Assembly: GCA_017557195.1 (NCBI GenBank) | Contig: JAFZAL010000055.1 | Location: forward strand, 1-57,718 | Source of the DNA: Thermoguttaceae bacterium | GTDB lineage: Bacteria > Planctomycetota > Planctomycetia > Pirellulales > Thermoguttaceae | Length of the DNA: 57,718 nt | Reading direction: 5' to 3' | Shown here: piece by piece, positions 6,193 through 46,487 of the stretch | How positions within the stretch are numbered: position 1 is the stretch's first letter | Layout of the letters: every line of letters starts with the position of its first letter | Made by a program: the position numbers and the translations under genes | The notes under the pieces: generated by a model | Seen by the model: only the letters and a program-made list of their open reading frames with translations | What the model was told of the DNA's origin: nothing | Database searches by the model: none

Positions 6193-9100
6193 TTATTTTG
6201 GCAATAAAACGAAAATTGTTATAAAAAGAATGATAAACAAGCAAATTATACAAATGGTTGTAGTTATATGGGTAACAATGTATAATCTTGCCTTTAAAAA
6301 TATCAACCCATTTCTTTTTTGTTTTTTTCGATGAATTATTTGCAAATGATACCATAAGATTTCCACAAATTTCTGGTAACACTCCCACGCTTTCGATTTG
6401 TTTCCTGCGTAATACTCCAAATTGCCAAGGTTAAAGTATACTCCGATCAAATGCAGCTGATAATTAAGATCATCTAACATTTTTTCAGATATTTGCTGGC
6501 AGATTTTCTCGGATTTCTCATACCATTTTCGCGCGTCTGTTTTGTTTTCAGCGCCAAACTCCAAATCGCCAAATCTCTTGTACAAAATACTCAACCACCA
6601 CTGAACCTGTTCGTTTTTCTTCATTTTGTCGGAGAGGATTTTGATTGTTTTCAGAGCTTTCTTGTACCTTTTATGTGCGGCAACTTTGTTAGAGCCTTGT
6701 TCCAAATCCCCAATTAATGTATAACAAGCAATCGTACCAAGCTGAGTCGGAACATTATCCGGTATTATTTTTACAAGTCGTTTGTTAATAGCAAGAGCTT
6801 TCTCACTCCATTTCAAAGCATCTGCTGTATTTTCTGCAGAGTCTTCCAATCTGCCAAGGTTCAAGTACAGTCCGCACAATTGTTCCAGAATATCAACGTT
6901 TTTGGGCATTTGTTCGTTCAGCCGCTTGATTATTGCCAGTGCATTTTTGTAATTTTCACGCGCAGAGTCTTTGTTTCCGCTAGCTTTCTCATACAAGCCA
7001 AACTGTGAGTACGCAAGACTCAAACCTTGCTGAATTACAATGTCCTTCGGCTTCATTTTAGAAAGCTTTTTCCAGTTATCCAGAGCAGCCTCAATCCATT
7101 TCTGACATTCGGCTGCGTTGCCAGCAGCATATGCAAGCTTTGTGTACCAATAGCTCAATTCTTTCAGCGTTTGAATATTTTCGGGCGACTGATCCTCAGA
7201 AAACTGATTGGCAAGTTGTTGAGCAATTTCTACGGCATTTTTGAAGAACTCCCGTGACTTGGTTAGGTGCCCAGCGATTATCTCTAATTGACCAAACTGA
7301 GCAAACAATTTACTCAACGCACTCTGCGCTTTGGCGTCTTCCGGGTTCATTTCGACAAGCCGTTTGTTTATATCCAGCGCTTTATTGTACCAAGTCCGCG
7401 CATCGACTATGTTTCCTGCGAGCGTTTCTAAATCGCCAAGATTTCCATATGAAGCGCTCAAATTCATCTGGATTTTTATATTCGATGGGAATGAATTGGC
7501 TCGACTTTTACTAAAATCTAACAAGCATTGGAAAACTTCTTTTGCTTCGTTCATTTTTCCAAGAGTTTTAAGCAATGTCCCGGAAGTATTAAGCGACCAT
7601 ACAACGTTTTCATCAATTTCATCCTCGGGATATTCCGTAGACAAATTTGTGATTATCAATAGGAATTCATAAATTGGTATGATGTTCCAGGAATTTTCGG
7701 ATGTATACCAGAAGTCCATATCCTTTTGAAGTAATATATGACATTTTTTCCAGATTGCATTAATTATTTCACTTACAGTTTCATCCGAGAATTCATCCGA
7801 GATTTTACGATGTATTGCGTCCGCCACAAGCCGATGCATACGGGCGATATTTCGTTCGTTTTCCAAAGGAGTTAGAAGACTGTACCTTGTCAGTTCCTTG
7901 AGGACTGTTACTCCTTCGTCTTCATTCAGACCGCAAAGTTCCGGGAGCCAGGTCAACGCTACCGCGTCAGAAGCCATAAAGGACGCAAATTCAAAAGCTT
8001 TTCGCGTATTAGACGAGACAGCCTCAAGAGTCGATTTTAATACCGCTGTCATCGTTTCGGCCGGGTGTCGCGTCAGGTCGCCGATTTCGTCCACCATCTT
8101 TTGGAACGTATTTTCTAGATCATTGACGAGCTGCTTATATTGTGACTGGTACGTTATTTCGGAAACGTCGATATTGCTGGCTAAATACGACCCTGTAAGT
8201 TCCACGGTCAGCGTGAACCCTGCCAACAGCTTTGCGATTTTTCGCGCCGCTTCTGCCTCCTTCGGGTCTTTCCCGAACGGTCGAAGGTTGCGTAGCAGTT
8301 CAACAGACTCGTCCTCGCTCAGACGTTCAACCGATTCCCAGTGAACGCCCGTTAACTTGGTTGCCTTCTCACGCATCGTAATGATTACATGGAAATAGTC
8401 GGGAAGATCAAGTTTAAGCAACTGTGAAATCAAATCCGGATTAGTTACGTTGTCGAGGATGAGAAGAAGATGCGCGCCCTCTTTCGGGAGAACCTTGCTT
8501 TTTGCTGCGATTAACTTATCGGCTTCTATCTCAAGTTTTTGGGCTTTTGCCCTGAGTTTCTCTGCATCTTCCTTTTGCTCTTCTTTCTCAAGCTCCTCTG
8601 CTTCTGACTTGAGATTATTGACTTCTTCTTTGAGCGTCTCTGGTCTTTTGTTCTGAAGAATGATTCTGTCTTGTTCTGCTTTCAGATTTTCAAAAAGAGC
8701 CTTAAGTCTCTTTTGGTTATTCCCTTTAAGTTTCCAATCATACATTTCCGTAATGCCGCAGGTCAGAATCGCATGGTAAATTGAGCTGCAATTCTCGCAA
8801 GACTTAAAGAAACGCCCCATCTGGTAATCCCATCCAAAGGCGTGCCCGTAAGTAAGAGCCAACTCGGTTTTCCCGAACCCGCCCAGACCGGTGATAGCGG
8901 AAACTACTTTGCCGGATTTGGAGATAATGTACTTACGCAAGGATAACAGTTTTTCCCGACGTCCGACAAAATTCTCATTATAGCAAGGATAATTGATCCC
9001 GCGCGGCACGTCGTCTTCCATATCCTGATGCCGGACTTTGTTTTTGACCTCGTCGCGCAGAGTTTTCAACACGTTGTCGATTTTCGCGACGAGGAAGTCG

Positions 9101-9576
9101 TGCATGTCAAAATTTTTGGACTGGTATGCCTGAATCTGACTGAGCCAGTTTGGAAAACGAATCTGTATGTTTTTAGGAATTTCAGGAGTCGGCGTTATTG
9201 CAGGATCGAATACGCCGACATTACTGATAATCATCGGCGCAGTTCCTTCCCCAAGCGTACAGCGGTGCATCTCGTGCTTCATCCACCAGTCGAACTCTTT
9301 GGCGCAGTACTCGCTCTTGAAATAATTCGGAGACAAAAGCACGATGAGGAACCGCGAAGTGGCGAGTTTTGACCGAATGTCATTGTCCCAGTGCGACATA
9401 TCGGGAATTTCGGTTTCGTCGAAAAAGACCCTTATTTCTCCGCCGAATATCTTCTTATGTTCCTCTGAACCATTCTTGAGCTTCTCTACAAACTCGTTAA
9501 CGAAGCCGGGTTTGCCGTCTGGAAGCTTGTTGTCTTTATGAGCGTAACTGATAAAGTAGTCGTAATTGTATTGCAT
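6193..9576 (-). CDS. TIR-NB-ARC-TPR (NLR-like) protein, copy 3, with coiled-coil insert and C-terminal membrane segment
   Basis: This 1127-residue protein has a TIR domain (1-140; SPNYFKSEYCAKEFDWW, candidate catalytic Glu94). The NB-ARC NTPase has P-loop GLGGFGKTE at 230-238 and Walker B LLLILDNV at 370-377. About eight diverged TPR-like units follow. Two features are absent from copies 1 and 2. One is a charged, Glu/Lys/Ala-rich coiled-coil insert at about 310-362 between Walker A and Walker B. The other is a C-terminal tail with basic residues (HRKKQKR) and then a strongly hydrophobic stretch (about 1096-1123), so this copy may be membrane-tethered. GGAG precedes the ATG by nine bases. The gene lies 124 bp downstream of tatD. 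Likely a defence NLR by analogy. Confidence 0.88.
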   Translation of the reverse strand: MQYNYDYFISYAHKDNKLPDGKPGFVNEFVEKLKNGSEEHKKIFGGEIRVFFDETEIPDMSHWDNDIRSKLATSRFLIVLLSPNYFKSEYCAKEFDWWMKHEMHRCTLGEGTAPMIISNVGVFDPAITPTPEIPKNIQIRFPNWLSQIQAYQSKNFDMHDFLVAKIDNVLKTLRDEVKNKVRHQDMEDDVPRGINYPCYNENFVGRREKLLSLRKYIISKSGKVVSAITGLGGFGKTELALTYGHAFGWDYQMGRFFKSCENCSSIYHAILTCGITEMYDWKLKGNNQKRLKALFENLKAEQDRIILQNKRPETLKEEVNNLKSEAEELEKEEQKEDAEKLRAKAQKLEIEADKLIAAKSKVLPKEGAHLLLILDNVTNPDLISQLLKLDLPDYFHVIITMREKATKLTGVHWESVERLSEDESVELLRNLRPFGKDPKEAEAARKIAKLLAGFTLTVELTGSYLASNIDVSEITYQSQYKQLVNDLENTFQKMVDEIGDLTRHPAETMTAVLKSTLEAVSSNTRKAFEFASFMASDAVALTWLPELCGLNEDEGVTVLKELTRYSLLTPLENERNIARMHRLVADAIHRKISDEFSDETVSEIINAIWKKCHILLQKDMDFWYTSENSWNIIPIYEFLLIITNLSTEYPEDEIDENVVWSLNTSGTLLKTLGKMNEAKEVFQCLLDFSKSRANSFPSNIKIQMNLSASYGNLGDLETLAGNIVDARTWYNKALDINKRLVEMNPEDAKAQSALSKLFAQFGQLEIIAGHLTKSREFFKNAVEIAQQLANQFSEDQSPENIQTLKELSYWYTKLAYAAGNAAECQKWIEAALDNWKKLSKMKPKDIVIQQGLSLAYSQFGLYEKASGNKDSARENYKNALAIIKRLNEQMPKNVDILEQLCGLYLNLGRLEDSAENTADALKWSEKALAINKRLVKIIPDNVPTQLGTIACYTLIGDLEQGSNKVAAHKRYKKALKTIKILSDKMKKNEQVQWWLSILYKRFGDLEFGAENKTDARKWYEKSEKICQQISEKMLDDLNYQLHLIGVYFNLGNLEYYAGNKSKAWECYQKFVEILWYHLQIIHRKKQKRNGLIFLKARLYIVTHITTTICIICLFIILFITIFVLLPK

Positions 9577-13274: not shown

Positions 13275-14678
13275 ATGTTTATTCAATTAAAAAGAATTGA
13301 ACTTAAAAATTTCCGATGTTTTCGTGAGCTTACGCTTCCATTATTACCTGATATAGAATCGAGCGTTCCTGATTATCAAAAGATTTATTCAAATCTAACT
13401 GTTTTAGTCGCAAAAAATGGAGAAGGGAAAACTGCGGTTTTAGAAGCGATAAGTTATTTATTAGGGTGTATGATTTCGCGTTTTCCACAAATTTCCGTTC
13501 CAAAATTTAAAGATTCTGACTTTAGACAAGAGTGGACAGTTACTTCCAATGGTCTTAAAAGATCAAAACGCGATAGTTATATGCGACTGCAAGCGTTTGC
13601 TAAAACTTCAACCAGTGAAGAAATCACTTGGGACATGCTCAAAAAGAGAGATGCATCCGAGAAAGTGGCTCAGTCATTACCCCCTCGCGTCAATTTAAAT
13701 CAGATTTATAAATTCGCGGATGGTATTTTAGATATTGAAAATTCAAATAATATCCGTGAAGAACTGTATCCGGTTATTGCATACTATAATACTCAGAGAG
13801 CAGTGATTTGGAAGAAACCAGAGCGCAGACGTCTTATTCGAAAGAAGCTTGATCAATATGACGGGTATAAAGGCGCTTTAGAAGGACATCTTAATTACAA
13901 ATACATGATAGAATGGATCAGCCTGATAGAAGATGAGCAGCGTAAAGAGAGAGAACGACTTCGTTCATGGGATTACGTTTCAAAAGAGAGTCAGACAATT
14001 CAGCTGGCTATTGAAAAACTGCTTCCGGGTTATCGTAATTTAAGGGTAGAAACGAAACCCTTGGATCTGGCGATTGATTATTATTCTGAAGATGAACAAG
14101 TTATTAAGTCTGATCGAATAGATTCACAACTTAGCGACGGTTATAAAACTGTACTGGTGTTATTATTAGACATCGTATCCAGAATACTGCGACTTAATAG
14201 CTCTGTTGATAATATTACGCCAGAAAGACTTTTACAGTCTCCAGGAATTGTTTTAATTGATGAAATAGATTTACATCTTCATCCTTTCTGGCAGCAGCGA
14301 GTTTTACATGATTTAGTTGTTACCTTTCCCAATATTCAATTTATTGTATCTACGCATAGTCCTCAAGTAATATCCGGCATTCCCAAAGAATGTATTCGCA
14401 TTTTTTCAAATGCTGATTTATTGCCAGTAGAAGAGCAAACTCAAGGGGTGGAAACCGATACTATTTTAGCTTCAATTTTTGGAACCGAAGCCTCTATTCA
14501 GGATTTGGAAATTGTTCAAGACTATAACACGCTGTTAGAGATGCTTGCAGAGCAAAACTTTTCTGGAGAGGCGTGGGACGCTCTTTATCAAAAGGTTGAG
14601 AAACACTATGGCAAGGACTTTCCACCATTACTCGGAATAAAACTCCATAAAGATTATTTAAGTAAGCGTAAACAATAA
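13275..14678 (+). CDS. ptuA: PtuA-like AAA ATPase of a Septu-type defence system
   Basis: This 467-residue SMC/RecF-type ATPase starts IELKNFRCFRELTLPL. Walker A is AKNGEGKT at about 46-53. Walker B with the following acidic residues is VLIDEIDLHLHP near 325-335. The H-loop STHSPQ lies near 360. This ATPase followed at once by a small HNH nuclease is the Septu (PtuAB) arrangement, an anti-phage system in which PtuA scaffolds and controls the PtuB nuclease. No reverse transcriptase or retron RNA is adjacent, so it looks like stand-alone Septu. GGGAAG lies four bases before the ATG. The gene is visibly AT-richer than its neighbours, which fits recent acquisition. Another OLD-like or RecF-like ATPase role is possible but less likely given the partner. 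Confidence 0.85.
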   Translation: MFIQLKRIELKNFRCFRELTLPLLPDIESSVPDYQKIYSNLTVLVAKNGEGKTAVLEAISYLLGCMISRFPQISVPKFKDSDFRQEWTVTSNGLKRSKRDSYMRLQAFAKTSTSEEITWDMLKKRDASEKVAQSLPPRVNLNQIYKFADGILDIENSNNIREELYPVIAYYNTQRAVIWKKPERRRLIRKKLDQYDGYKGALEGHLNYKYMIEWISLIEDEQRKERERLRSWDYVSKESQTIQLAIEKLLPGYRNLRVETKPLDLAIDYYSEDEQVIKSDRIDSQLSDGYKTVLVLLLDIVSRILRLNSSVDNITPERLLQSPGIVLIDEIDLHLHPFWQQRVLHDLVVTFPNIQFIVSTHSPQVISGIPKECIRIFSNADLLPVEEQTQGVETDTILASIFGTEASIQDLEIVQDYNTLLEMLAEQNFSGEAWDALYQKVEKHYGKDFPPLLGIKLHKDYLSKRKQ

Positions 14679-14689
14679 AAGGAAGAAAA

Positions 14690-15304
14690 ATGCACAAGCT
14701 TCATCGACCTGATATTGAACCCTCTGGATTGCAGATTGCCCGAGAGAAGCGTCTTCAAAATTGGGAGAGCGGTCTTGAGAAAGCGAGCATACGACAAGCA
14801 TTGCTTGAAATGCAGGACAGTCGTTGCGCTTACTGTGAAAAATCTTTAAAAGATAGCGAACAGCATATAGAACATTTTCGAAAACAGAGTGAATATCCTA
14901 AACTCGTTTTTGAATGGAGCAATCTGTTTCTTTCGTGTAACAATCTGAATACTTGTGGAAAATACAAAGATAGAATTTCAATTAACATTGATGAGGTAAT
15001 TGATCCCAGCATTGATGATCCAGAGTATTATTTAGAATTTGATTTGAATGGAAGGGTATTTCCTAAATCCTGCTTAACGCCTCAAGAACGATTAAAAGCC
15101 GAGAAAACGATTGAAGCTTTCAATTTGAATGAATTGCATTTGAAAACAAATAGAAAGAACTTTCTTAAAAGTTTTCGATGGATTACCGAAACTCAAGATA
15201 TCGCAGATTCAGAGGGATTAAGACTCTATCTAAGTAGTTTTTCGATTGATAGCTATATAACCTGTTTATACCATTATCTGGGTCTGAGAGTTAATCAAGA
15301 ATAG
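14690..15304 (+). CDS. ptuB: PtuB-like HNH endonuclease of a Septu-type defence system
   Basis: 204 residues with the zinc/HNH arrangement C46xxC49, then HIEHFRKQ (His59, Glu61, His62), then Cys83 and Cys89. This is the layout of the HNH family paired with PtuA ATPases. The predicted activity is cleavage of nucleic acid once the complex is triggered by infection. It starts 11 bp after ptuA with AAGGAAG upstream, so the two are surely co-transcribed. Composition is AT-rich like ptuA. Confidence 0.85.
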   Translation: MHKLHRPDIEPSGLQIAREKRLQNWESGLEKASIRQALLEMQDSRCAYCEKSLKDSEQHIEHFRKQSEYPKLVFEWSNLFLSCNNLNTCGKYKDRISINIDEVIDPSIDDPEYYLEFDLNGRVFPKSCLTPQERLKAEKTIEAFNLNELHLKTNRKNFLKSFRWITETQDIADSEGLRLYLSSFSIDSYITCLYHYLGLRVNQE

Positions 15305-16013: not shown

Positions 16014-17276
16014 ATGGGAATCGCTTTAGAAGTCAATCACGTTTGGAAGAAATTCAATCGCGGCGAGTTCAACGACTCGCTTCGCGACGCTATTCCTGCT
16101 ATGCTCAAAAGCATGGTCGGTTTAGGTCCCAACAAAACAGAATTGCAAAAAAACGAATTCTGGGCGTTAAAAGACGTTGATTTTAAAGTCGAAGAAGGGG
16201 AATCGGTCGCTTTAATCGGGCATAACGGCGCAGGGAAAAGTACGCTTCTGAAGATATTTTCCAAAATTCTTAAACCCAACCGCGGCAGTATTAAAGTCAA
16301 CGGACGCATGCGCGCTTTGATTGAGATTGGCTCCGGCTTCCATGGCGACCTGACCGGTCGAGAGAATATCTTTCTCAACGGATCGATTTTGGGCATGTCC
16401 CGAAAGGAAATTCAGTCGAAGTTCGACGCTATTGTCGACTTTGCTGGAATAGAAGACTTTCTCGATATGCCGGTCAAACGCTATTCCAGCGGCATGTACG
16501 CGCGCCTGGGTTTTGCCGTTGCGGCGCACCTGGAACCGGAAATCCTTATCGTTGATGAAGTTCTTGCTGTAGGCGACTTGGCGTTTCAGAGAAAATGCCT
16601 GGGCAAAATGAACGAAGTTACCAAAGAAGGTCGTACGGTTATCTTCGTTAGCCATAATATGTCAGCCGTTCGGAATTTGTGTCAACGAGCGATTTTATTT
16701 GACCATGGCGAGATGCTGAAAGATGGGCCGACAGGCATCGTAGTCGAAGAATTTTTTAAACAATTACAAAAAGAGCAAAAAGAATTAGGAGAAAAAGACA
16801 GGTCAGGATATCAGAAGGCGATTATTACGAAAACGCTATTAGGTTCTTCTCTTTCCACTTTAGGGGAAAAGGCTTTTTGCCACATGAATGGCGAATTATA
16901 TATTAGATATTACTATCATATCAATGAACCGATAGATAATGCGGTATTCAGCTTTGTTTTAATTGATTATGAACAAAGACACATTATGGGGTGTAATACG
17001 CGAATTACAGAAAAGCAAATTGGAAGACTGGAAAAAGATGGTTATATTGACTTTCATATTCCTCATCTTCCGCTAACTTATGGTTCATACAGTTTAAGCG
17101 TTGGAATATTTGAGCGAATTGATGAATCAAATAATTTACAAAGATTTGATCATCGCAACATTCTGGATTGCATTGAAGTTGGATTGGTTAATGCTCCTGG
17201 CTGGAATTTCAGCGAAGGGTTTTATCAGTCCTGCTTCGTGCCATATGAATGGAATATCAATAAAGAAGGCGTATAA
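16014..17276 (+). CDS. ABC transporter ATPase for surface polysaccharide export (Wzt/TagH-like)
   Basis: 420 residues. The nucleotide-binding domain has Walker A GHNGAGKST (about 68-76), signature YSSGMYARLGF, Walker B ILIVDEVLAVGD and switch His VFVSHN. The SLRDAIPAML linker near the start is typical of the polysaccharide and teichoic-acid subfamily. Residues from about 260 form a Wzt-C-like beta-sandwich that in relatives recognises the end group of the glycan before export. No partner permease (Wzm) is encoded in the window. Downstream are a methyltransferase, which in such systems can make the terminal cap, and glycosyltransferases. No Shine-Dalgarno sequence is visible. Confidence 0.88.
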   Translation: MGIALEVNHVWKKFNRGEFNDSLRDAIPAMLKSMVGLGPNKTELQKNEFWALKDVDFKVEEGESVALIGHNGAGKSTLLKIFSKILKPNRGSIKVNGRMRALIEIGSGFHGDLTGRENIFLNGSILGMSRKEIQSKFDAIVDFAGIEDFLDMPVKRYSSGMYARLGFAVAAHLEPEILIVDEVLAVGDLAFQRKCLGKMNEVTKEGRTVIFVSHNMSAVRNLCQRAILFDHGEMLKDGPTGIVVEEFFKQLQKEQKELGEKDRSGYQKAIITKTLLGSSLSTLGEKAFCHMNGELYIRYYYHINEPIDNAVFSFVLIDYEQRHIMGCNTRITEKQIGRLEKDGYIDFHIPHLPLTYGSYSLSVGIFERIDESNNLQRFDHRNILDCIEVGLVNAPGWNFSEGFYQSCFVPYEWNINKEGV

Positions 17277-17365
17277 ATAATAAACAGAAATCGAAGAATT
17301 TTCCTGTTTTGTTCAATTGTATGTTGTTTCTATAGAATTATTATCACTTTTATATTCTCACTAAA

Positions 17366-18151
17366 ATGGATGTAAAAAGCATTTACAATACAGAGTTTTA
17401 TAACAATCAAAAGTATCGCTCTTTACGAGCGGCTGGCGTCATATTGCCATATTTGTTTCAATTCTATAAGCCGAATTCGGTAATTGATATCGGATGCGGT
17501 TCCGGATCCTGGCTTCGCGCGTGCCAGGATTTGGGCGTTGGCACAATCCACGGCGTTGATATTAACGAGGTTGATGAACAGACGTTATTTGTTCCCAGAG
17601 ATGTAATTGATATTTTTGATTTTTCTAATTTAACTTCTCAAGAGAAATTTGCCCACAGCCAAAAATACGATTTAGCCATATCGCTTGAGGTGGCAGAGCA
17701 TTTGGAGCCGCAAAACGCGGTTTCGTTTGTAAAATATCTAACGTCTTTTTCAGACGTTGTTTTGTTTTCGGCTGCTCATCCATTTCAAAGCGGCGTTCAC
17801 CATGTTAATTGTCAACCTGCCGTATATTGGTCTTCGTTGTTTAAAAATGAAGATTACGTATGCGTTGATATAATGAGGCGTCAATTGATGTTTGTTCCTC
17901 AATTAGACGAATGTTACTGGTATGGACAGAATTCCTTTTTATATGTTCATAATTCTTGCGAAAATGTTTTAAAAAGTTTGCAGGATTATATCACTGACGC
18001 TCCCGTTTCTTATTACCATCAGGCCGTCGTCAACGAAATAGTCCATCAAATGAATGGAATGAGTAGTCGATTAACCAAAATGGAAACCAGTCTTTGGTAT
18101 CGAATTCAACGCAAATTGAAAAAAATATTGCGTCGAAAAATTGACTACTAA
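17366..18151 (+). CDS. SAM-dependent methyltransferase
   Basis: 261 residues, class I Rossmann methyltransferase. SAM-binding motif I is VIDIGCGSGSWLRA (about 39-52), then HGVDIN for motif II, and LAISLEVAEHLEP for the motif IV region. The C-terminus (about 240-261) is basic. Being between the ABC exporter ATPase and glycosyltransferases, it probably methylates a sugar or glycan end. The start was taken at the only suitable ATG. TATATT lies nine bases upstream and no Shine-Dalgarno sequence is present. Confidence 0.85.
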   Translation: MDVKSIYNTEFYNNQKYRSLRAAGVILPYLFQFYKPNSVIDIGCGSGSWLRACQDLGVGTIHGVDINEVDEQTLFVPRDVIDIFDFSNLTSQEKFAHSQKYDLAISLEVAEHLEPQNAVSFVKYLTSFSDVVLFSAAHPFQSGVHHVNCQPAVYWSSLFKNEDYVCVDIMRRQLMFVPQLDECYWYGQNSFLYVHNSCENVLKSLQDYITDAPVSYYHQAVVNEIVHQMNGMSSRLTKMETSLWYRIQRKLKKILRRKIDY

Positions 18152-19017
18152 ATCTTGGAATTATTTTTTCAACGCCATTTTATTACAGAATCAATAGATA
18201 TCCTGTTTAGGGTCAATATTTTTTCAAAAAGGTAGACAGCAGAGTTGATTCTTTATAATTCTGACTTGCGTCAGCGTCCAAGATTTACATTCAAAAGCGA
18301 CGGCGTCCCTCTTATGTTGGGAATGTAATGAAGACAGCCGTCAGGATGGCAGAGTTAATCAGATACTCTCCTGACAGGCTCAATGAACAAACTTTTGAAA
18401 CGCATTCCATATAAGTCTTTTCAGCATTAGCGGCACAGACGTTAACAATGTCCGCCAAGCGGCTCTCAAGTCAAAGAGAAAGCCGACTGAAATGCTGAAC
18501 GATAAAACGACGACTGATTCGTTATGCTCTTGACAAAGATTTTTTCCGTCTTGGGTAATGGTCTTTTGACGGTTGATGCATGCAGATTGAAAATGAACAT
18601 TAATTGTTGAATTGACTTTCATTCGATTAGGCATTCGGTTAGGCATTGGCTCTTCTCATAAATGTTAATAATGAAGATCACGATCTGTCATAGGTTGTAT
18701 AACAGAGCGATAATCGAGGAAAACAGGAGAGTAAGAACGACATATTATTCCGGTTTGTCATTTAAACCTGTTAATATTACACAAGTTCTTTAGAGATTTG
18801 TAATTTACCACATAAGCGTTCCATTTGCAATCAAAAAAAAGTACAATTTTTCAAAAGAATTAAAAAAAACTTCCAATAATGGAAACGTCGATTAGTAAAA
18901 AATGGATTTTGAATAGCGGTTTGAACAATTGGAAGTTGTTGTTTGAATACAGCTTTCATTTTTAAGTAAAAAATTAGAGTATTTGATATCAAACCAGATT
19001 CCAGATTAATAAATATA
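18152..19017. other. Long AT-rich intergenic region
   Basis: Nothing recognisable. A weak 88-codon minus-strand ORF (18380-18646) shows no family motif, no ribosome binding site and a directly repeated start (MPNRMPNR); I do not support it as a gene. The region could be the decayed remains of an inserted element but no inverted repeats or transposase motifs were found. Confidence 0.5.
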
Positions 19018-19026
19018 TGCTATAAT
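19018..19026 (+). promoter_or_regulatory. Extended -10 just before a GTG start
   Basis: TGC-TATAAT forms an extended -10. Only six bases separate it from the GTG at 19033, so the transcript would begin at or next to the start codon (leaderless). No -35 is evident. Confidence 0.5.
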
Positions 19027-19032
19027 AATAAC

Positions 19033-20067
19033 GTGAGCGAAGAAATTCCCATATCTGTCGTAATGTCTGTTTATAATGGCGAGCGATATTTGTCGCTGGC
19101 GATAGAGTCCATTTTAAAACAGACGTTCAAAGACTTTGAATTTATAATCGTTGACGACGGCTCAACGGACCGATCGTTGGAGATAATACGCAAATACGAA
19201 AAGAAAGATTCTCGCATTCGCGTTTTGGTTCAGGAAAACCAGGGTTTGGCGGCAGCGTTAAACAACGGAATCGCTATGGCGTGCGGGAAATATATCGCTC
19301 GCATGGACGACGACGACATTTCGCTGCCGAAGCGATTGGACATTCAATACAATTTCATGGAAGCGCATCCGGAAATTCTCGCCTGTGGCGGTATATCTGT
19401 TATTATCAATAAATGGGGCGATGAATATATGTTTTGGGAAAAGCAAGAGGACGCTCCTATGATTGACGACTTTGCCGAAATAGATTCCAAACATATTATT
19501 AGCGGGGCGTCGTCTTTGTGCCACCCGTCGTCCATTTTTAGAAAAGCAGCATGGGAAGCTGTAGGGGGCTATTCTGCTGATCTTAGATACGCTCAAGATT
19601 TGGATTTATGGTTAAAAATGGGAGAACATGGCGCTTTGACCAATCTTCAAGAGCCATTAATCTTATATCGTTTTCATAATAATACTGCATCTGGAACTCA
19701 TCGACAAGAGCAATACGAGTGTGTTTGTTTAGCAGTTAAAAGAGCGAGACAGCGCCGCGGCATAACAAACGACGATTATTCTAAAATATATTCCGGAGAG
19801 GTTATTCCAAGCGAAAAAGACATCTTATATAAAACCTCAGTATTTCAGTTTAATAAGAAGCGGTATTTCAAAGCTTCGATTTATTATATCAGCTGGATTA
19901 TTAAAGCGTTTCCTTCCTTATTGAGCGATTGGCTTGTAAAACGTTTAATTCCCTATTCGCCCTGGCTTCAACGGACGTTGGAAATGGTGGATTTTCAACA
20001 CAAACAAATTCAGGAATTACGCAGTCAATTAATGGAGAAAAATAACATGGCTAATAAGATAAAGTAA
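19033..20067 (+). CDS. Glycosyltransferase family 2 (GT2-A)
   Basis: 344 residues. GT-A fold with ISVVMSVYNGERYL, the nucleotide-binding VDDGSTD, and the metal-binding ARMDDDDIS. It transfers a sugar from an NDP-sugar to a growing surface glycan or acceptor in the cytoplasm. The start is GTG because the family motif begins eight residues later and no in-frame ATG precedes it. The C-terminus carries LSDWLVKRLIPYSPWLQ followed by a Gln/Glu-rich probable coiled coil. That tail is shared with the next three glycosyltransferases. Confidence 0.88.
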   Translation: MSEEIPISVVMSVYNGERYLSLAIESILKQTFKDFEFIIVDDGSTDRSLEIIRKYEKKDSRIRVLVQENQGLAAALNNGIAMACGKYIARMDDDDISLPKRLDIQYNFMEAHPEILACGGISVIINKWGDEYMFWEKQEDAPMIDDFAEIDSKHIISGASSLCHPSSIFRKAAWEAVGGYSADLRYAQDLDLWLKMGEHGALTNLQEPLILYRFHNNTASGTHRQEQYECVCLAVKRARQRRGITNDDYSKIYSGEVIPSEKDILYKTSVFQFNKKRYFKASIYYISWIIKAFPSLLSDWLVKRLIPYSPWLQRTLEMVDFQHKQIQELRSQLMEKNNMANKIK

Positions 20068-20201
20068 TCGTTATTTTTTCTGATTTTTATTAACCTTAAA
20101 CTAATATATTTTAGAATAATAACGTTATTAAATACAATCCTGGTTTTTTAATAGATGTAATAGTTTCTTATTCAACACACCAGTTTTCATTAGATTTTGA
20201 A

Positions 20202-21182
20202 ATGTCCAATATAAAGATTGCTTTTTCGTCTAACGAAAAATTTGCCAGACATTTGGCGGCTTTTATCGCTTCGATTTTATCCAATTCACTGGACAACGAA
20301 TCGTTTGACTTTTATATTCTGGACGGCGGAATTACAGAGCAAAGTCAAGAGAAAATCCGCTCTTTAAATAGTATTAAAGATTTTAACGTTCATTTTTTGA
20401 AAACGGATTTTGAACAGCTTAAGGACTGCCCCAATAATGTGATATTTACAAAAAACGCCTATTCGCGTCTTTTGCTGGATTTGGTTTTGCCTGACGTTGA
20501 CAGAATTCTGTATCTGGACTGTGACATGATAGCAACGCGGTCGCTGGGCGCGTTATGGGAATCCGATCTGAAAGGCAAGTCCCTGGGCGTTGTTCACGAT
20601 TTTTCAATCGATCTGGATCGTTTTGACAATGTGCTAACGGTTTTTCTGCTTGAATTGACGTTTAAAGACATCTTTAATTCCGGGCTGTTGTTAATGAATC
20701 TGGATAAAATTCGTAAGGAAAAAACGTTTAGAAAAACGTTGGAATGGGTTGCCAATCATCCAAGTATGTTACAGTGGGCAGATCAAAACCCATTGAACGT
20801 TGTTTTTCACAACGACTTTGTCTTTCTGGATGGGATGTGGAACGGAAGCGCGCAAAAGAAAGACCATTTAAATGGGGAGCCTATGCCTGCGATAATTCAT
20901 TATTTGAAAAGAGTCAAACCATGGCATCTTGAATACGACGGCTTGTATGAAGAACAATACGAAAAGTATCTTTCCATGACGCCGTGGAAAGGGACGCCGA
21001 AGAGTCCTCAATCGCCTGTAAAGATGTCTTTTATACGGAACGCCAAAAGACGTCTTGCCGACTGGATTGCTCAAAAAGCGCTTCCTCACTCTCCATGGCT
21101 GCAGTCGTTAATGGATTACCGCGATAGCATGGAAGAGCAGAATAAAAACCTGTTTAATGTCATTCGTAAAAGAGTTCAATAG
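20202..21182 (+). CDS. Glycosyltransferase family 8
   Basis: 326 residues. GT8 features include IKIAFSSNEKFARHLAAFIASI, RLLLDLVLPDVDRILYLDCDM with the DxD-type metal motif DCD, FNSGLLLMNLD, and WADQNPLNVVF. It resembles LPS or lipooligosaccharide galactosyl/glucosyltransferases; the sugar is unknown. The C-terminal LADWIAQKALPHSPWLQ matches the tail of the neighbouring GT2 enzymes, although GT8 and GT2 have no common C-terminal domain. The next gene starts four bases after the stop. Confidence 0.87.
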   Translation: MSNIKIAFSSNEKFARHLAAFIASILSNSLDNESFDFYILDGGITEQSQEKIRSLNSIKDFNVHFLKTDFEQLKDCPNNVIFTKNAYSRLLLDLVLPDVDRILYLDCDMIATRSLGALWESDLKGKSLGVVHDFSIDLDRFDNVLTVFLLELTFKDIFNSGLLLMNLDKIRKEKTFRKTLEWVANHPSMLQWADQNPLNVVFHNDFVFLDGMWNGSAQKKDHLNGEPMPAIIHYLKRVKPWHLEYDGLYEEQYEKYLSMTPWKGTPKSPQSPVKMSFIRNAKRRLADWIAQKALPHSPWLQSLMDYRDSMEEQNKNLFNVIRKRVQ

Positions 21183-21186
21183 TCAA

Positions 21187-22302
21187 ATGCCTGCCATATC
21201 CGTAATTATACCGGTTTATAATGTTGAGAAGTACTTGCGAGAGTGCCTCGACAGCGTTGTCAATCAGACGTTTCGCGATATTGAAATTATCTGCATTAAC
21301 GACGGTTCGACTGATGGAAGTCCGGCGATTCTTGAAGAGTATGCCGCCAAAGACAGCCGAATTATCATTATAAATCAGGAGAATTCCGGACAATCTGTCG
21401 CCCGAAATAACGGATTAAAAATCGCAGCTGGGGAGTATGTCGCTTTTTTGGATTCAGACGATTATATGGAACTGAATCTGTGCGAGACTGCATATCAAAA
21501 AGCGCAGCAGACCGGAGCTGATATTATCATGTATTTTTACGATACTTTTGGAGATGAATGCAGGCGTTCTCCTGCTATCGATACTATTCTGGATGATGAA
21601 ATTGTTATTCGAGCCAGAAAAATCGACGCAGTAAACGATAATTACAATGTTATATGGAATTTGCTGTATAAACGTTCGTTTTTACAAAATAATAATATCT
21701 ATTTTTTGGAAAACGTTCTCTTTGAAGATGTGCATTTTTCTGTCAAATGCGCCTGCCTGTGCAATAAAATTTCTGTTATACGGGAAATTTTGGTGCATTA
21801 TCGGATTGGATGCGGTTACTCGAACGACAAAAAACAATCCGAGAAAAAGCTTCAAAGGGTTGAAATGTTTTGTCATATGATAGACGATCTTCGGAAGATG
21901 GATTCATCTCAGGATTTTCTTGTTAAACTGTATCTGACAAAATGGCGTGATTTGTATTCAACATATTATTATAGGATTCCACGCAATTTGCGTAAAAAAA
22001 TGCTGAAATCTATCGTTAATAACATGACGGAAGAAGAATACTCGCTGCTTCAAAATAATAACGTTAAACTGAATACCGGAATTCGCAATTTTTATTTGAG
22101 TTTATACGGTTCGTTGTTCAATCGGGTTCGATTTAAATGCAAGTATATTAAGGGAATGATTGCAGATTGGTTTGTGAAACAATTAATCCAAAGTTCTCCG
22201 TGGATTCAATCAACGTTGGAATTGGTAGATAATCAGCAAGAAACAATTCAGGATCTTCGAAAACAATTAATTAGTCAGAATGATAAACAACGTAAAGCCT
22301 AA
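21187..22302 (+). CDS. Glycosyltransferase family 2 (GT2-B)
   Basis: 371 residues from the ATG at 21187. I prefer it to an upstream in-frame ATG at 21157, because the family starts ISVIIPVYNVEKYL and this choice leaves four bases after the GT8 stop. Motifs are CINDGSTDGS, NSGQSVARN and AFLDSDDYM (metal). It resembles WaaE/EpsJ-like GT2 enzymes. The C-terminus has IADWFVKQLIQSSPWIQ plus a probable coiled coil. It is a close paralogue of the next gene along its whole length, so this is a tandem duplication. It overlaps that gene by 23 bp. Confidence 0.87.
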   Translation: MPAISVIIPVYNVEKYLRECLDSVVNQTFRDIEIICINDGSTDGSPAILEEYAAKDSRIIIINQENSGQSVARNNGLKIAAGEYVAFLDSDDYMELNLCETAYQKAQQTGADIIMYFYDTFGDECRRSPAIDTILDDEIVIRARKIDAVNDNYNVIWNLLYKRSFLQNNNIYFLENVLFEDVHFSVKCACLCNKISVIREILVHYRIGCGYSNDKKQSEKKLQRVEMFCHMIDDLRKMDSSQDFLVKLYLTKWRDLYSTYYYRIPRNLRKKMLKSIVNNMTEEEYSLLQNNNVKLNTGIRNFYLSLYGSLFNRVRFKCKYIKGMIADWFVKQLIQSSPWIQSTLELVDNQQETIQDLRKQLISQNDKQRKA

Positions 22303-23386
22303 AGTATCAGTAATCATACCGGTTTATAATGTCGAAAAATACCTGCGCCAGTGTTTGGATTCCGTTGTTAACCAGACGCTGCATGATATTGAAATTATAT
22401 GTGTAAACGATGGTTCAACAGACGCTTCCAGCCGCATATTGGAAGAGTATTCATCAAAAGACAATCGATTTGTCGTTATTAATCAGGAGAATTCCGGACA
22501 ATCGGTCGCCCGAAACAAAGGATTAAAAGTCGCGGCTGGGGAGTATATCGCTTTTCTGGATTCAGACGACTATATGGAACCGAATCTTTGTGAACTTGCA
22601 TATCAAAAAGCGCAGCAGACCGGAGCTGATATTACCATGTTCTTCTATGACACGTTTGGAGAAGATTACATGAACGTATCCGCTATCGATACTATTCCAG
22701 ACGACGATATTGTTATTCGAGACCGAAAAATCGACGCTGTAAACGATACCAACAATGTTATTTGGAATATGCTGTATAAACGTTCGTTTATAGAAAAGAA
22801 CAATATTTCCTTTTTGGAAAACACGCTCTATGAAGACGTTCATTTTACAATCAAATGCGCCTGTTTGTGCAACAGAATTGCCGTCATTCGGAAACGTTTG
22901 GTGCATTATCGGGTTGGCAGCGGCTGTACGACCGATAAAAAACAGTCCTATAATCAGCTGCAAAGGGTTGGATTGTATCGTCGTATGATTGATGAGCTAC
23001 GGACGATAGATTCCTCGCCGGATTTTCTTGTTAAACTGTATCAGAAAAAATGGACTAGTTTGTATTCAACGTATTATTACGGGATTCCTCGCGATCTCCG
23101 CAAAAAAATGTTGAAATCTGTTGTTGACAACATGACGGAAGAAGAATACGCGCTGCTTCAAAATAACAACGTTAAACTGAATTCCGGGATTCGCAATTTT
23201 TATTTGAGTTTATACGGTTCGTTTTTTAATCGATTTCGATTCAAATGCAAGCATATCAAGGGAATGGTTGCAGATTGGTTTGCCAAAAGATTATTCGCCC
23301 ATTCGCCATGGTTGCAGGCGTTTGGCGAGCGAGAGGAAGAGTATAAGAAAAAATATGAAGATTTATGCCAAAGCAGGCGTGAATAG
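22280..23386 (+). CDS. Glycosyltransferase family 2 (GT2-C), paralogue of GT2-B
   Basis: 368 residues. VSVIIPVYNVEKYLRQCLDS, CVNDGSTDAS, NSGQSVARNKG and AFLDSDDYM define the GT-A domain. The rest follows GT2-B closely, including MTEEEYxLLQNNNVKLN. The tail keeps VADWFAKRLFAHSPWLQ but the following helix is replaced by a Glu/Lys-rich segment. The ATG lies inside the end of GT2-B (23-bp overlap), implying translational coupling. It is the last gene of the plus-strand cluster, facing a minus-strand gene across a hairpin. Confidence 0.87.
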   Translation: MINNVKPKVSVIIPVYNVEKYLRQCLDSVVNQTLHDIEIICVNDGSTDASSRILEEYSSKDNRFVVINQENSGQSVARNKGLKVAAGEYIAFLDSDDYMEPNLCELAYQKAQQTGADITMFFYDTFGEDYMNVSAIDTIPDDDIVIRDRKIDAVNDTNNVIWNMLYKRSFIEKNNISFLENTLYEDVHFTIKCACLCNRIAVIRKRLVHYRVGSGCTTDKKQSYNQLQRVGLYRRMIDELRTIDSSPDFLVKLYQKKWTSLYSTYYYGIPRDLRKKMLKSVVDNMTEEEYALLQNNNVKLNSGIRNFYLSLYGSFFNRFRFKCKHIKGMVADWFAKRLFAHSPWLQAFGEREEEYKKKYEDLCQSRRE

Positions 23387-23435
23387 CTTTTAATCAATTT
23401 CAGCAATTTTGAACAAACAACGTATCGAAACGTCC

Positions 23436-23456
23436 GGCGCCGTTGCCAGCGGCGCC
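23436..23456. terminator. Hairpin between convergent glycosyltransferase genes
   Basis: Perfect 7-bp stem GGCGCCG/CGGCGCC with a 7-nt loop in a 75-bp gap between convergent genes. There is no strong T run on either side, so termination is possible but not certain. Confidence 0.45.
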
Positions 23457-23461
23457 AAACT

Positions 23462-24541
23462 CTACTGATTTTGTTCTGCCTTTTTTCTCTTAAACCAGTG
23501 AAGAGGATTTTTGGGAATATTATCAAAGCTTTTCCATAAATCATAGAATTGACAAAGAACCGGCTGTGGACATTGTCGATAAATGGCTTTGCATTCTCTG
23601 GAAAACAAACCGTACAGACTCCGTCCAAAATGGCGCTGCATATTCCTGCGAAAATCAAGATAATTCATGTATTTCAGCAGTTCCTCTTTCCGGTTTTGAG
23701 CTTCTTGAGAATCAATGCAGTCCTTCGGCAGATCGACAGAAAAGTTCAGGGCAAACTTATAAATTGGCTCGCTGCGCCAATACACTTGAAGCGAACGAAC
23801 GTAAAACTTTTTGTTCTCCTTTTGAACTTGTTCAATGTTTCTTTGCGTCTCATACTGTTTGTTGACAAGAGACCATGAGCAATTGTTGTTGTGCAGACGA
23901 TGAATAAACAACGGCTCTTCACAAATGAAATATTTAATCCCTAAAAAAGGAGTTATGTTTGATATCCAGACGTCATAGCCTATTTCTTTCAACGTTAGAG
24001 GAAAAATCTGGTGAGCGTAGGCCCGCTGCAGAGCCATCGAACAGCCGGCTTCAAGAGGAATATTCTTTGTTGTCAAATATCCATTTGCCATTTTGCCAAA
24101 ATATTTATCTATGGCAAGACGCGACTCCAGCATGCTTTCCATCGGAATTGGATTCAATTTGTCGTCTCCAAAAATTGCATTGCTTGAAACGACCATTCGA
24201 CGCGGGTCGATTTCAAACTGCTGGAGCATTTTTTCAATTCTGGTCGGCTGCCAATAATCGTCCTGATCTGAAAGAAAGATTATGTCCTGAGTGCAATTAA
24301 CAATAGCGTTGGAAAAGTTTTGAACAACGCCGATCCGGTTTTCATTCTGAATAATCTTAACTGTAAACGGAACTTGAGATTTGAACTTTTCAAGAATTTG
24401 AATTGTGTTGTCTGTTGAACAGTCGTCACAGATAACCAATTCATTTGGCGTTATGGTTTGATTTGCCAGCGAGTCAAGTTGCTCTTGAAGATATTGCTCT
24501 CCATTATAAGTACACATAGCAACAGAGACTGTGTATTTCAT
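23462..24541 (-). CDS. Glycosyltransferase family 2 (GT2-D)
   Basis: 359 residues from the ATG at 24541 (MKYTVSVAMCTYNGEQYL). An ATG six codons further upstream is possible. Motifs are CDDCSTDNT and IIFLSDQDDYWQP (metal-binding), with HRLHNNNCSW near the middle, typical of rhamnosyl- or galactosyl-type GT2 enzymes. It lacks the SPWLQ tail carried by the plus-strand glycosyltransferases and ends in a basic stretch (WFKRKKAEQNQ). It lies 45 bp beyond the end of the rnf operon but is divergent in function, so it is probably part of the polysaccharide locus. Confidence 0.85.
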   Translation of the reverse strand: MKYTVSVAMCTYNGEQYLQEQLDSLANQTITPNELVICDDCSTDNTIQILEKFKSQVPFTVKIIQNENRIGVVQNFSNAIVNCTQDIIFLSDQDDYWQPTRIEKMLQQFEIDPRRMVVSSNAIFGDDKLNPIPMESMLESRLAIDKYFGKMANGYLTTKNIPLEAGCSMALQRAYAHQIFPLTLKEIGYDVWISNITPFLGIKYFICEEPLFIHRLHNNNCSWSLVNKQYETQRNIEQVQKENKKFYVRSLQVYWRSEPIYKFALNFSVDLPKDCIDSQEAQNRKEELLKYMNYLDFRRNMQRHFGRSLYGLFSRECKAIYRQCPQPVLCQFYDLWKSFDNIPKNPLHWFKRKKAEQNQ

Positions 24542-24586
24542 TATAAATACCCGCTCCAAACCTGAAAAGTTATCTGGTTAAACTCA

Positions 24587-30443: not shown

Positions 30444-33400
30444 ATGTCCCAACAAACTCCGCAAGATATTATCGACGACGCAACAAAGCAGACGCTTGCT
30501 CATCTGAAATACGCTCAGGTGTTCAACTCGCTTCTGTTGTTGTTGATATTTTGCGTGGGATATATTATCGTCTTTGCGGTTGTGGACGCCTGGGTTCTGC
30601 CGAAGGGGAACCAAACTCTGTTTAGAATTTTAGGACTGAGCGTTTTTCTGATTGCAATTGTCTGGCAGTTATGGCGAATCGTTCGGTTCTGGCTGGCGTT
30701 TCGAGTCAATCCGCTCTACGTCGCCAAAACGATTGAAGATTTGTCGCCCGGCATGAAAAACGCGCTCATTAACCTGACCTGTTTCAAGATGTCGGACGCG
30801 CCCCCGCCGGAAGCTGCGGTTAAGCTGGTGGAATTCCAGGCGGCGAGAACGATCTTGCGTTCTGACCTGGAATCCTCGACGGATAGCGCGCGGCTTTTGC
30901 GTCATTGCATTATACTTTTAGCGGTCATTGCTGCGTTGGGGTTGTATATTGTTTTGTCGCCCAAGAGCTTTTGGCAGTCGTCCGGGCGTCTGTTCATGCC
31001 GACAGCGGCGATAGAATCCCCGACACGCGTCCGAATTCAAAAAGTCGAGCCGGGCGACGCTCAAATTCTCGTTGGGAGAAAGCTCAATATTTCCGCGGAG
31101 ATCAAGGGAATTTCCAAGTCGGATACCGTCGAAGTCATTTGGAGTTCTGTCAGCGGGTCAAAGACAAACTGTCGGGCGGAAATGACCGTCGAACCAGGCG
31201 CGTACGCGTACACGTGTACTATTCCCGACGACGAATCCGGGGCGCAGGAAGATTTCACGTACTGCGTCAGCGTCGGCGACGCGGTTTCTCCCCAGTACAA
31301 AGTAACCGTCTTGCCGGAACCGAGTTTTTCAATTGAACAGATTCAATATCAGTACCAGGAATACACGCGTCTGGAACCGAAAATACAGACGGATTCCGCC
31401 GAGATTCAGGCGCTGGAAGGAACGGCTGTAACGATTCAAATCAAAACAAATCGAGCGGTCAAACAGGCGCACGTCAAAACAGAACCGGACGGTCGTTCGT
31501 ACAGAATGAACGTTGACAATAAGACAAACGCGTCTTGCAGCGTTGCTCTGCGCTGGAACGAAAAGACGAACGCGGCGGATCAGGAATCGTGGTCAGTGTC
31601 CTTTACAGACGAGTTGGGCTACGAGAACCAGCCGCTTTCGTATCCGATAGCCGTCGTTCGAGACAAACCGCCAATTATTCTGAAAACCGTTGAACAGACG
31701 CTTACGATTCCGCCGGGATCGGTAAAGAAACTCCCGATTCGAGTTCAAGACCCGGACTTCGGCGTCAGCAAGGCGGAGCTGGAATTCCAGAAATGTATTA
31801 TCAAAGACGGTCAGACGCAGTGGTCGAAAAAGGTCGTCGTGCCGCTGTATTCCGCCAAGCCAGGCGCCGCGCCGCAAAAGAGCGTTGACTCATCGTTTAC
31901 TCTGGACTGCAACAAATGGAAGCTGTCACAGGGCGACACGCTCATTTGGCGCATTATCGTTCAGGACAACAAACAGCCCGCGCCCAACGAGACGCGGTCA
32001 GAGGATTACTGTATCCGAATCGGTACGGAGCAATCCGAAGACGCTCCGCAGCCGGAAGACCAGAAGAACGAAGACGCCAACAACCCGCAGCCGGACGCTC
32101 AAGATCAAAACGAGAATGGATTCAATTCGCCCGATACTGACAGCAATAATCAGGACGGTCAGCCGCAAAACGATTCGCCCGAGGACGAACAGGAAGATGG
32201 TTCAGAAAAAGGCGACAACGCCGGTCAACAGCAAAGCGGCAAACAGGACGGAAAGCAGAACGGACAGCAAGACGGTCAGCAGGACGGTCAGCAAACCGGA
32301 GAGCAAAACGGCGGCGGCGAACAGGGCAACCAAGCCGGACAAGAGGGTAATCAAGCCGGTCAGGAAGGAAACGACGGCGGACAAGAAGGCAATCAAGCCG
32401 GTCAAGAAGGCAATCAAGCTGGACAAGAAGGAAACCAAACCGGTCAAGAAGGAAACCAAGCTGGACAAGAAGGGAATCAAGCTGGTCAAGAAGGTAACCA
32501 AGGCGGCGACGATTCTCGCAACTCGCAACTCGCAACTCGCAACTCCGATGGCGGCGGGAATTCCGGCGAGCCAATTGATCCGAATTCCAATCCCGGCGAC
32601 GCTATCGAAGAAATCCTAAAGCATAAACAGGAATCCGGCGGTCAGAATTCGTCACAGCCCGGCGAAGGACAACAGGACGGTCAACAAGACGGCGAAGGCC
32701 AGCAAGACGGAACCGGTCAACAGGACGGCAAAGGTCAAAAAGACGGAACTGGTCAGCAGGACGGTCAGCCTCAAGACGGTACAGGCGATAAAGGCGGAGA
32801 AGATGGCGAGCAATCCGGAAAACCTCAGACCGCAACGTCTGAAGACGGAGATTTAGAGGATTCTGGTGATCCTGGCGACGGCGAGGATTTGTCTGGACAA
32901 AAAGCGGGCAAGTCGTCTGTCGGCAGTAAAGACGAGGGAGGCTCGGAAAGCGAAGACCCGAACAAACAGCTCGATACCAAGGGCGAGAAGAACGCGGGCA
33001 AGTCGGGAGAGGGGTCGCAGAAGTCGGAAATGCACACGCAGGACAACCCGGTCAACGAAATTCCCGAAGGCGAACCGATTCAGCAGGGGGAAAACGTCAA
33101 AAAGGACGAGGGAACCGAACAGCCGTCGTCGGTGGGGGATCCAACTGTCAACGACAACAACGGCAAAGCGTTTGATCCGGAACAGAAAGGTCGCAACAAA
33201 GGCGAGACAGCCAACGGCGGCGGCATGGACTCCGAAACGCGCGGCAACAGCAACAACGGCGGTCAAACCCCGTCCGATCAGGGCGCCTTGGGCGGCAACA
33301 GCGGCAACGAGGGCACCGGTCAGAACGCGGGTGACAAGGTCATTTCCGACGGCGCGCCGGGCAGAACGGATCCCAACAAACGCGCTGGCGCTGGGCGTGA

Positions 33401-34001
33401 GGGGAATCCGGAGTCCGGATCCGGCGACCCGAAAGACAGCGGGACGCCTCAAAACGGGAACGATGGCGCAGGCGGGGATTCTTCCGGCAAGCAGAACCCT
33501 GACCCGATGGACGGAACAAATTACAATGATGACACGCAAACCAGCGAGGGCGCTCACGGGTCGGTTGGCGGCGGGATGGGAACAACAAATCCGCTGGACG
33601 ATTTGCCGCCCATGCCGCCGGCGGGCGATGCGGACGACGTCAACGTCGAGTACGCTCAAAAGCAGACGGTCTTGGCGTTGGCGCATTTGAAAGATCAGCT
33701 CGACGCCGGCGACGATACGCTTCTCAAACGCCTGGGCTGGACGAAAGAACAGGCGTTGGAATTTATTCGTCGATGGGAAAAGATGTTCGCCGACGCGAAA
33801 AAGAATCCAAAGGCGAAAGACGAGTTGGCGCAAACACTTAAGAGTTTGGGACTGCGTCCTGCCGGGTATCGGGCGACAAACGCCAGAAACGCCGATTTGC
33901 AGTCGCCGGGCGCGGTTCGCGACGCCGGAAGAACAGCGGTTCCGCCGCAGTGGTCAGAAGCGTTTGAAGCCTTTACGTCCGGACTGGGAGAAGAACCATG
34001 A
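30444..34001 (+). CDS. Large membrane protein with low-complexity Gln/Gly/Asp/Asn-rich region (DUF4175-like)
   Basis: 1185 residues. Two N-terminal membrane helices (about 28-48 and 62-80) and a third near 153-172 precede a beta-rich region to about 530. After it comes a long, very acidic and polar region rich in Q, G, D, N, S and E (about 535-1060). This includes a tandem 7-residue repeat GNQAGQE (21 bp units) around 32320-32500. The last 120 residues are ordered, with a helical LLKRLGWTKEQALEFIRRW segment. The layout fits large planctomycete proteins of the DUF4175 type; function unknown. A heptamer DNA repeat (32515-32542) is read through in frame as SRNSQLATRNS. Its stop overlaps the ubiE start (ATGA). 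Confidence 0.8.
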   Translation: MSQQTPQDIIDDATKQTLAHLKYAQVFNSLLLLLIFCVGYIIVFAVVDAWVLPKGNQTLFRILGLSVFLIAIVWQLWRIVRFWLAFRVNPLYVAKTIEDLSPGMKNALINLTCFKMSDAPPPEAAVKLVEFQAARTILRSDLESSTDSARLLRHCIILLAVIAALGLYIVLSPKSFWQSSGRLFMPTAAIESPTRVRIQKVEPGDAQILVGRKLNISAEIKGISKSDTVEVIWSSVSGSKTNCRAEMTVEPGAYAYTCTIPDDESGAQEDFTYCVSVGDAVSPQYKVTVLPEPSFSIEQIQYQYQEYTRLEPKIQTDSAEIQALEGTAVTIQIKTNRAVKQAHVKTEPDGRSYRMNVDNKTNASCSVALRWNEKTNAADQESWSVSFTDELGYENQPLSYPIAVVRDKPPIILKTVEQTLTIPPGSVKKLPIRVQDPDFGVSKAELEFQKCIIKDGQTQWSKKVVVPLYSAKPGAAPQKSVDSSFTLDCNKWKLSQGDTLIWRIIVQDNKQPAPNETRSEDYCIRIGTEQSEDAPQPEDQKNEDANNPQPDAQDQNENGFNSPDTDSNNQDGQPQNDSPEDEQEDGSEKGDNAGQQQSGKQDGKQNGQQDGQQDGQQTGEQNGGGEQGNQAGQEGNQAGQEGNDGGQEGNQAGQEGNQAGQEGNQTGQEGNQAGQEGNQAGQEGNQGGDDSRNSQLATRNSDGGGNSGEPIDPNSNPGDAIEEILKHKQESGGQNSSQPGEGQQDGQQDGEGQQDGTGQQDGKGQKDGTGQQDGQPQDGTGDKGGEDGEQSGKPQTATSEDGDLEDSGDPGDGEDLSGQKAGKSSVGSKDEGGSESEDPNKQLDTKGEKNAGKSGEGSQKSEMHTQDNPVNEIPEGEPIQQGENVKKDEGTEQPSSVGDPTVNDNNGKAFDPEQKGRNKGETANGGGMDSETRGNSNNGGQTPSDQGALGGNSGNEGTGQNAGDKVISDGAPGRTDPNKRAGAGREGNPESGSGDPKDSGTPQNGNDGAGGDSSGKQNPDPMDGTNYNDDTQTSEGAHGSVGGGMGTTNPLDDLPPMPPAGDADDVNVEYAQKQTVLALAHLKDQLDAGDDTLLKRLGWTKEQALEFIRRWEKMFADAKKNPKAKDELAQTLKSLGLRPAGYRATNARNADLQSPGAVRDAGRTAVPPQWSEAFEAFTSGLGEEP
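32515..32542 (+). repeat. Heptamer tandem repeat inside a coding region
   Basis: Four perfect CTCGCAA units within the 1185-residue ORF. Because 7 is not a multiple of 3, loss of one unit would put translation into a frame that stops at 32617-32619. Confidence 0.8.
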
Positions 34002-46459: not shown

Positions 46460-46487
46460 ATTACGAATTACGCATTACGAATTACGC
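46460..46487 (-). repeat. Heptamer tandem repeat, ATTACGC family
   Basis: Four alternating units ATTACGA/ATTACGC. The array supplies the last codons and the TAA stop of the PEP-CTERM gene. Confidence 0.75.

Follow-up and report, generated by a model that had tools for sequence, protein, structure and literature searches.

Sequence comparison revealed a conserved C-terminal tail of approximately 50 residues common to four neighboring glycosyltransferases (GTs), termed GT2-A, GT8, GT2-B1, and GT2-B2, that are encoded in the window (the whole analyzed stretch of 57,718 nucleotides). The tail behaved as a shared add-on module limited to clusters containing a Wzt-type ABC ATPase, a helical build was predicted for it, and alignments identified it as an addition carried by at least three GT lineages (GT2-A, GT2-B, and GT8). 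The sequences and structure models are best explained by a putative portable C-terminal helix-turn-helix module, and a membrane-proximal role as a tag for docking or self-association is given about an even chance of being correct.

The glycan cluster and its surroundings

The cluster comprised a Wzt ATPase, a methyltransferase, four plus-strand GTs in the order GT2-A, GT8, GT2-B1, and GT2-B2 (Pfam), a minus-strand GT2, and then the rnf genes. The genes and tails were located in the window as follows:

16014..17276, plus strand, Wzt-type ABC ATPase with a Wzt C-terminal domain (Pfam ABC_tran and Wzt_C)
17366..18151, plus strand, SAM methyltransferase of the cluster (Pfam PF13489)
19033..20067, plus strand, GT2-A glycosyltransferase (EpsE/TuaG-like), 344 aa, tail-bearing (Pfam PF00535, 4.4e-37)
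19894..20064, plus strand, GT2-A C-terminal tail, SPW from 19957 (tail HMM E = 1.2e-23 in its own genome)
20202..21182, plus strand, GT8 glycosyltransferase, 326 aa, tail-bearing (Pfam PF01501, 1e-41)
21030..21179, plus strand, GT8 C-terminal tail, SPW from 21090 (leave-one-out HMM E = 1.8e-14)
21157..22302, plus strand, GT2-B1 glycosyltransferase (PRK10073-like), tail-bearing (Pfam PF00535, 2.8e-40)
22132..22299, plus strand, GT2-B1 C-terminal tail, SPW from 22195 (tail HMM)
22280..23386, plus strand, GT2-B2 glycosyltransferase, tail-bearing, 72% identical to GT2-B1 (Pfam PF00535, 3.4e-39)
23240..23383, plus strand, GT2-B2 C-terminal tail, SPW from 23303 (tail HMM)
23462..24559, minus strand, tail-less GT2 of the cluster, an internal negative (Pfam PF00535; no tail HMM match)

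The tail motif was absent from the methyltransferase, which had its own, basic C-terminus. A tail-bearing counterpart of GT2-A with 76% identity was encoded in another genome of the same genus (G003). The DxD aspartates and conserved histidine of GT8 (D106, D108, and H233) were invariant across 31 homologs, and the top PDB fold match for the catalytic part of its AlphaFold2 model was LgtC (1ss9; E = 1.1e-19). GT2-B1 probably starts at ATG 21187 rather than at 21157 because its homologs begin at the equivalent methionine, and the overlap between GT8 and GT2-B1 would therefore disappear.

No Wzm permease adjoined the Wzt ATPase, and the sole permease-like candidate of the right size in the genome (G000:C71:13818-14438, a different contig) had a sub-threshold ABC2_membrane match. 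The cluster of a second genome of the genus (G002:C54) adjoined rnfB, as did the window cluster (16014-24559), and the gene content between Wzt and the last GT2 differed between the two. This comparison characterizes the cluster as a polymorphic, O-antigen-like locus.

Directly upstream of the glycan cluster, a gene pair at 13275-15304 encoded an AAA ATPase and an HNH-type protein with matches to Septu PtuA (2.9e-89) and PtuB (3.8e-51), and is probably an anti-phage defense system. Two adjacent TIR + TPR proteins of approximately 1150 residues each on the minus strand (2452-5964 and 6193-9576), the first with an NB-ARC match, resembled NLR-like immune or signaling proteins. A GmrSD_N (DUF262)-type protein at 34947-36746 was similar to the candidate defense models HEC-05 and PDC-M55C, and a protein of 1185 residues at 30444-34001, which Pfam did not match, contained long low-complexity repeats rich in G, Q, and N (GNQAGQE). 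The minus strand encoded two repetitive autotransporter-like proteins of very great length with PEP-CTERM sorting signals at their ends (46482-51104 and 51654-54632), and a similar autotransporter-like PEP-CTERM protein was found near the glycan cluster of G003.

Sequence of the shared tail

The four tails sat where the earlier note had placed them, with the serine of the SPW motif at 19957, 21090, 22195, and 23303. The motif given in that note was real but slightly too strict, as the ten tails now aligned followed the pattern [DN][WYLA][LIF][AV][KQ]x[LAV][ILFVA]xxS[PGD]W[LIM]Q, in which S, W, and Q never varied. An HMM built from the other nine tails matched the left-out GT8 tail at E = 1.8e-14 and an HMM from the B-type GT2 tails only recovered GT2-A at 8e-20 and GT8 at 1e-13, where the E-values of both analyses refer to a small test set; among the GT2 tails, the A type and the B type matched one another at 1e-8 to 1e-22. 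A chance likeness of the tails was ruled out by the leave-one-out match. Over the whole 4.18-Mb genome the tail profile identified these four tails only, within the sensitivity of the first pass of the search, and three further SPWxQ matches in the DNA of the same genome (C71, C107, and C119) were not GT tails. The tail carried no Pfam or NCBIfam domain, the matches stopping in the catalytic or linker region, while the tail profile matched no chain among PDB sequences at E ≤ 1 and a plasmid search with the tail returned no match. The bearers had been described as enzymes of two different folds, which requires correction since GT2 and GT8 are two families that both have the GT-A fold (PMC7185993).

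Predicted structure of the tail

AlphaFold2 models placed the tail helices at residues 273-293 and 298-325 in GT8 (31 sequences; mean pLDDT 86) and at residues 320-346 and 348-380 in GT2-B1 (13 sequences; mean pLDDT 88). In both models, helix 1 was followed by a break at Ser-Pro-Trp and by helix 2 up to the end of the protein, with a tail pLDDT of about 60-85. Helix 1 comprised about 20-27 residues and was hydrophobic and mostly net basic with a conserved Asp-Trp and Lys. Helix 2 had about 25-30 residues, was Gln/Glu-rich with three to four heptads, and was diverged and E/K-rich in GT2-B2; the Ser-Pro at its start would fit a helix cap. The Gln/Glu-rich probable coiled coil noticed earlier corresponded to this second helix, in which the a and d positions were mostly hydrophobic and a hydrophobic periodicity of ~3.5 residues exceeded shuffles (p < 0.05) in seven of the ten tails, or in six of ten when repeated with a slightly shifted stretch. 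Helix 2 was weak in some copies (GT2-B2 of G003 and the tail of G062).

The amphipathic membrane anchor suggested for the tail gained no support from a simple test, as the hydrophobic moment of helix 1 at 100 degrees was not above shuffles in nine of the ten tails, with a partial signal at 95 degrees. A rival explanation treats the tail as a peripheral-membrane anchor that stays monomeric and does not gather enzymes, comparable to the basic/hydrophobic C-termini common on bacterial GTs. The hydrophobic and mostly net basic helix 1 fits this explanation, and other homologs of GT8 and GT2 terminate in basic/aromatic tails of unrelated sequence such that some C-terminal extension seems generally needed. 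However, a plain anchor would not need a shared sequence-specific motif with S, W, and Q invariant in ten tails or a periodic helix 2, nor were the helix 1 moments at 100 degrees above those of shuffles in nine of the ten tails, and anchoring alone is regarded as unlikely.

Relatives without the tail

The idea of a transplanted module was well supported by tail-less relatives of GT8, GT2-A, and GT2-B, by the presence of the tail in four other genomes, and by codon divergence. A GT8 of the window type was identified at E ≤ 1e-10 in 26 of 119 same-family genomes (window genome included), and among the GT8 C-termini read, i.e., those of most of the 26 genomes, the tail was on the window GT8 only. 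The two nearest GT8s (BLAST identities of 46% and 45%; genome-search identities of 49% and 48%) were both tail-less and aligned with the window GT8 up to the TPWK region, after which they had differing basic tails. Also tail-less were the nearest GT2-A outside the tail clusters (G003:C11; 53% identical over the catalytic part) and GT2-B relatives at ~40% identity in G048:C53, G062:C450, and G067:C7, while a GT2-B relative in G001:C45 had at most a very degenerate tail.

Many GTs are homo-oligomers, and each tail might dimerize or trimerize its own enzyme with no contacts between different GTs, a role to which the short coiled-coil-like helix 2 would be suited. Homo-oligomerization leaves unexplained why neighboring enzymes from different families share the module when related enzymes encoded elsewhere in these genomes lack it, and it is considered very improbable.

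Distribution and link with Wzt

The tail was present in five genomes, of which G000 (the window genome), G002, and G003 belong to the genus of the window and G048 and G062 to a second one, and it was always on GTs. Outside the window genome, six intact tail-bearing GT2s were identified at E < 1e-19 (three in G003 and one each in G002, G048, and G062), and G048 also had a divergent second tail-bearing GT2 (E = 0.0017) and one gene remnant with the tail. The profile search across genomes proposed in the earlier note found the tail on GT2s of four other genomes but not in the rest of the samples, with no other real tail among about 390 phylum-level and 397 order-level genomes. Weak matches elsewhere in the phylum were 'DSPWLQVTLDTGNFLEDPY' of TIM-barrel proteins (sugar isomerase-like by inspection) or out-of-frame stretches, and a TIM-barrel-like protein with 'DSPWLQVTLDTGNF' weakly matched in the phylum and order samples was not a tail.

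A Wzt-type ABC ATPase was encoded in five of five tail-bearing clusters, an association of few, related clusters, and no Wzt ATPase was found in the 12-19 kb examined at the tail-less GT2-B loci (G048:C53, G062:C450, G067:C7, and G120:C105). Wzt clusters without tails occurred in many genomes, mostly lacking a close GT2-B gene, and the tail is therefore dispensable for export in general.

Age and possible route of spread

In each of two genomes, the GT2-A and GT2-B tails were 44-55% identical compared to 28-31% for the catalytic parts. The same codon was used at one of ten residues shared by the GT8 and GT2-A tails and at 5 of 17 shared by GT8 and GT2-B2, and codon agreement at shared tail residues was not above that in the catalytic parts. 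A tail identity exceeding that of the catalytic parts, with codons not specially alike, points to protein-level constraint, and the differing codons at shared residues ruled out recent gene conversion among the window tails. Gene conversion confined to this locus, named in the earlier note as the finding that would speak against a module, did not account for the tails, which occurred in other genomes and had diverged codons. On this evidence, the window tails are judged real and old.

A tract of ~130 nt in G048 extends from about the motif Trp to the end of the tail and takes in the first codons of the GT2 that follows. Two copies of this tract were 93% identical (64/67 and 59/65), with flanks of 61% before and 71% after. 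The copies lay on G048:C22 (8412-8711 and 9481-9780), one in a gene remnant and the other with an intact GT2. This tract indicates that recombination is able to transfer a portion of the tail and therefore makes recombination between the tail end and the start of the next gene a plausible route of spread. It also lends itself, together with tail ends that overlap or abut the start of the next GT2, to an explanation in which the 3' end of a GT and the 5' end of the following GT2 recombine as a unit and the tail is a passenger without pathway-specific function. Against this, the window tails share protein sequence and not codons, which indicates that they were kept by selection after transfer, and the tail is retained on genes without a tail-linked GT2 downstream (GT2-B2 in the window, G002, and G062); a mere passenger is rated quite improbable. 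That the tail merely results from the start of the following gene was likewise rejected, since its codons are variable and no partner lies downstream of the final gene in the row. Recombination as the route of spread is compatible with the docking reading, explaining the spread of the tail and not its conservation.

Proposed function

In the proposed mechanism, the module would have been added to GT lineages with neighboring genes in a cluster that begins with a Wzt-type exporter ATPase. A tight Ser-Pro-Trp turn would cap helix 2, a Gln/Glu-rich coiled-coil-like helix by which the tails may bind one another or a common partner, and the hydrophobic helix 1 would keep the assembly by the inner membrane, the site of lipid-linked glycan building. 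Successive enzymes would thereby act on the same glycan chain. We infer oligomerization, membrane contact, and pathway assembly of the tail-bearing GTs from these features. The occurrence of the tail in two genera only, the tail-less GT2 of the cluster (23462-24559), the many Wzt clusters that lack tails, the lack of clear amphipathicity in helix 1, and the shortness of helix 2 with its weakness in some copies speak against docking.

A broader proposal, put forward tentatively and with some doubt, is that the helix-Ser-Pro-Trp-helix is a transferable pathway-address tag that passes from one GT family to another and designates enzymes for a single exporter-linked glycan assembly complex, such that receipt of the tag recruits a new enzyme. 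How a polysaccharide pathway keeps its soluble or peripheral GTs together is known mainly for a few enterobacterial models, and a shared tag on different GT families, if true, would be a simple answer open to testing and might serve as a tool for GT pathway assembly. It would also account for the uptake of new enzymes by polymorphic glycan loci.

Comparison with known systems

The docking domains of polyketide synthases are short helical coiled-coil-like C-terminal modules on successive pathway enzymes that are pair-specific and arranged head-to-tail, whereas the window tails are all C-terminal and alike. LgtC-type GT8 enzymes have a C-terminal basic/hydrophobic membrane-association segment, and the window GT8 likewise has a C-terminal basic/hydrophobic segment, although LgtC-type enzymes are not known to carry an SPW motif or a second helix of the coiled-coil kind. 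BMC encapsulation peptides are similar in being helical end tags on unrelated enzymes but differ from the window tail, which is much longer and has two helices. BMC targeting was rejected as the shell protein PF00936 was absent from the window genome (91% complete), compared to its presence in 2 of 14 control genomes.

In ABC-dependent O-antigen synthesis, the WbdD scaffold gathers the polymerase through a recruitment site together with a coiled coil and a membrane helix (PMC11231755). The likeness to WbdD/WbdA and related polymerase-terminator assemblies lies in a Wzt-linked glycan cluster and would extend to a coiled coil and a membrane-associated helix on the C-terminal side of an enzyme that gather GTs at the membrane (PMC11231755). 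WbdD differs in being one long coiled-coil ruler on a terminator, as opposed to a short tail repeated on several GTs of two families; helix 2 had 28-33 residues in the models, and Pfam identified no terminator domain fused to the tail-bearing enzymes, in contrast to a WbdD-type terminator and ruler. A WbdD-type scaffold is the nearest documented parallel of the tail.
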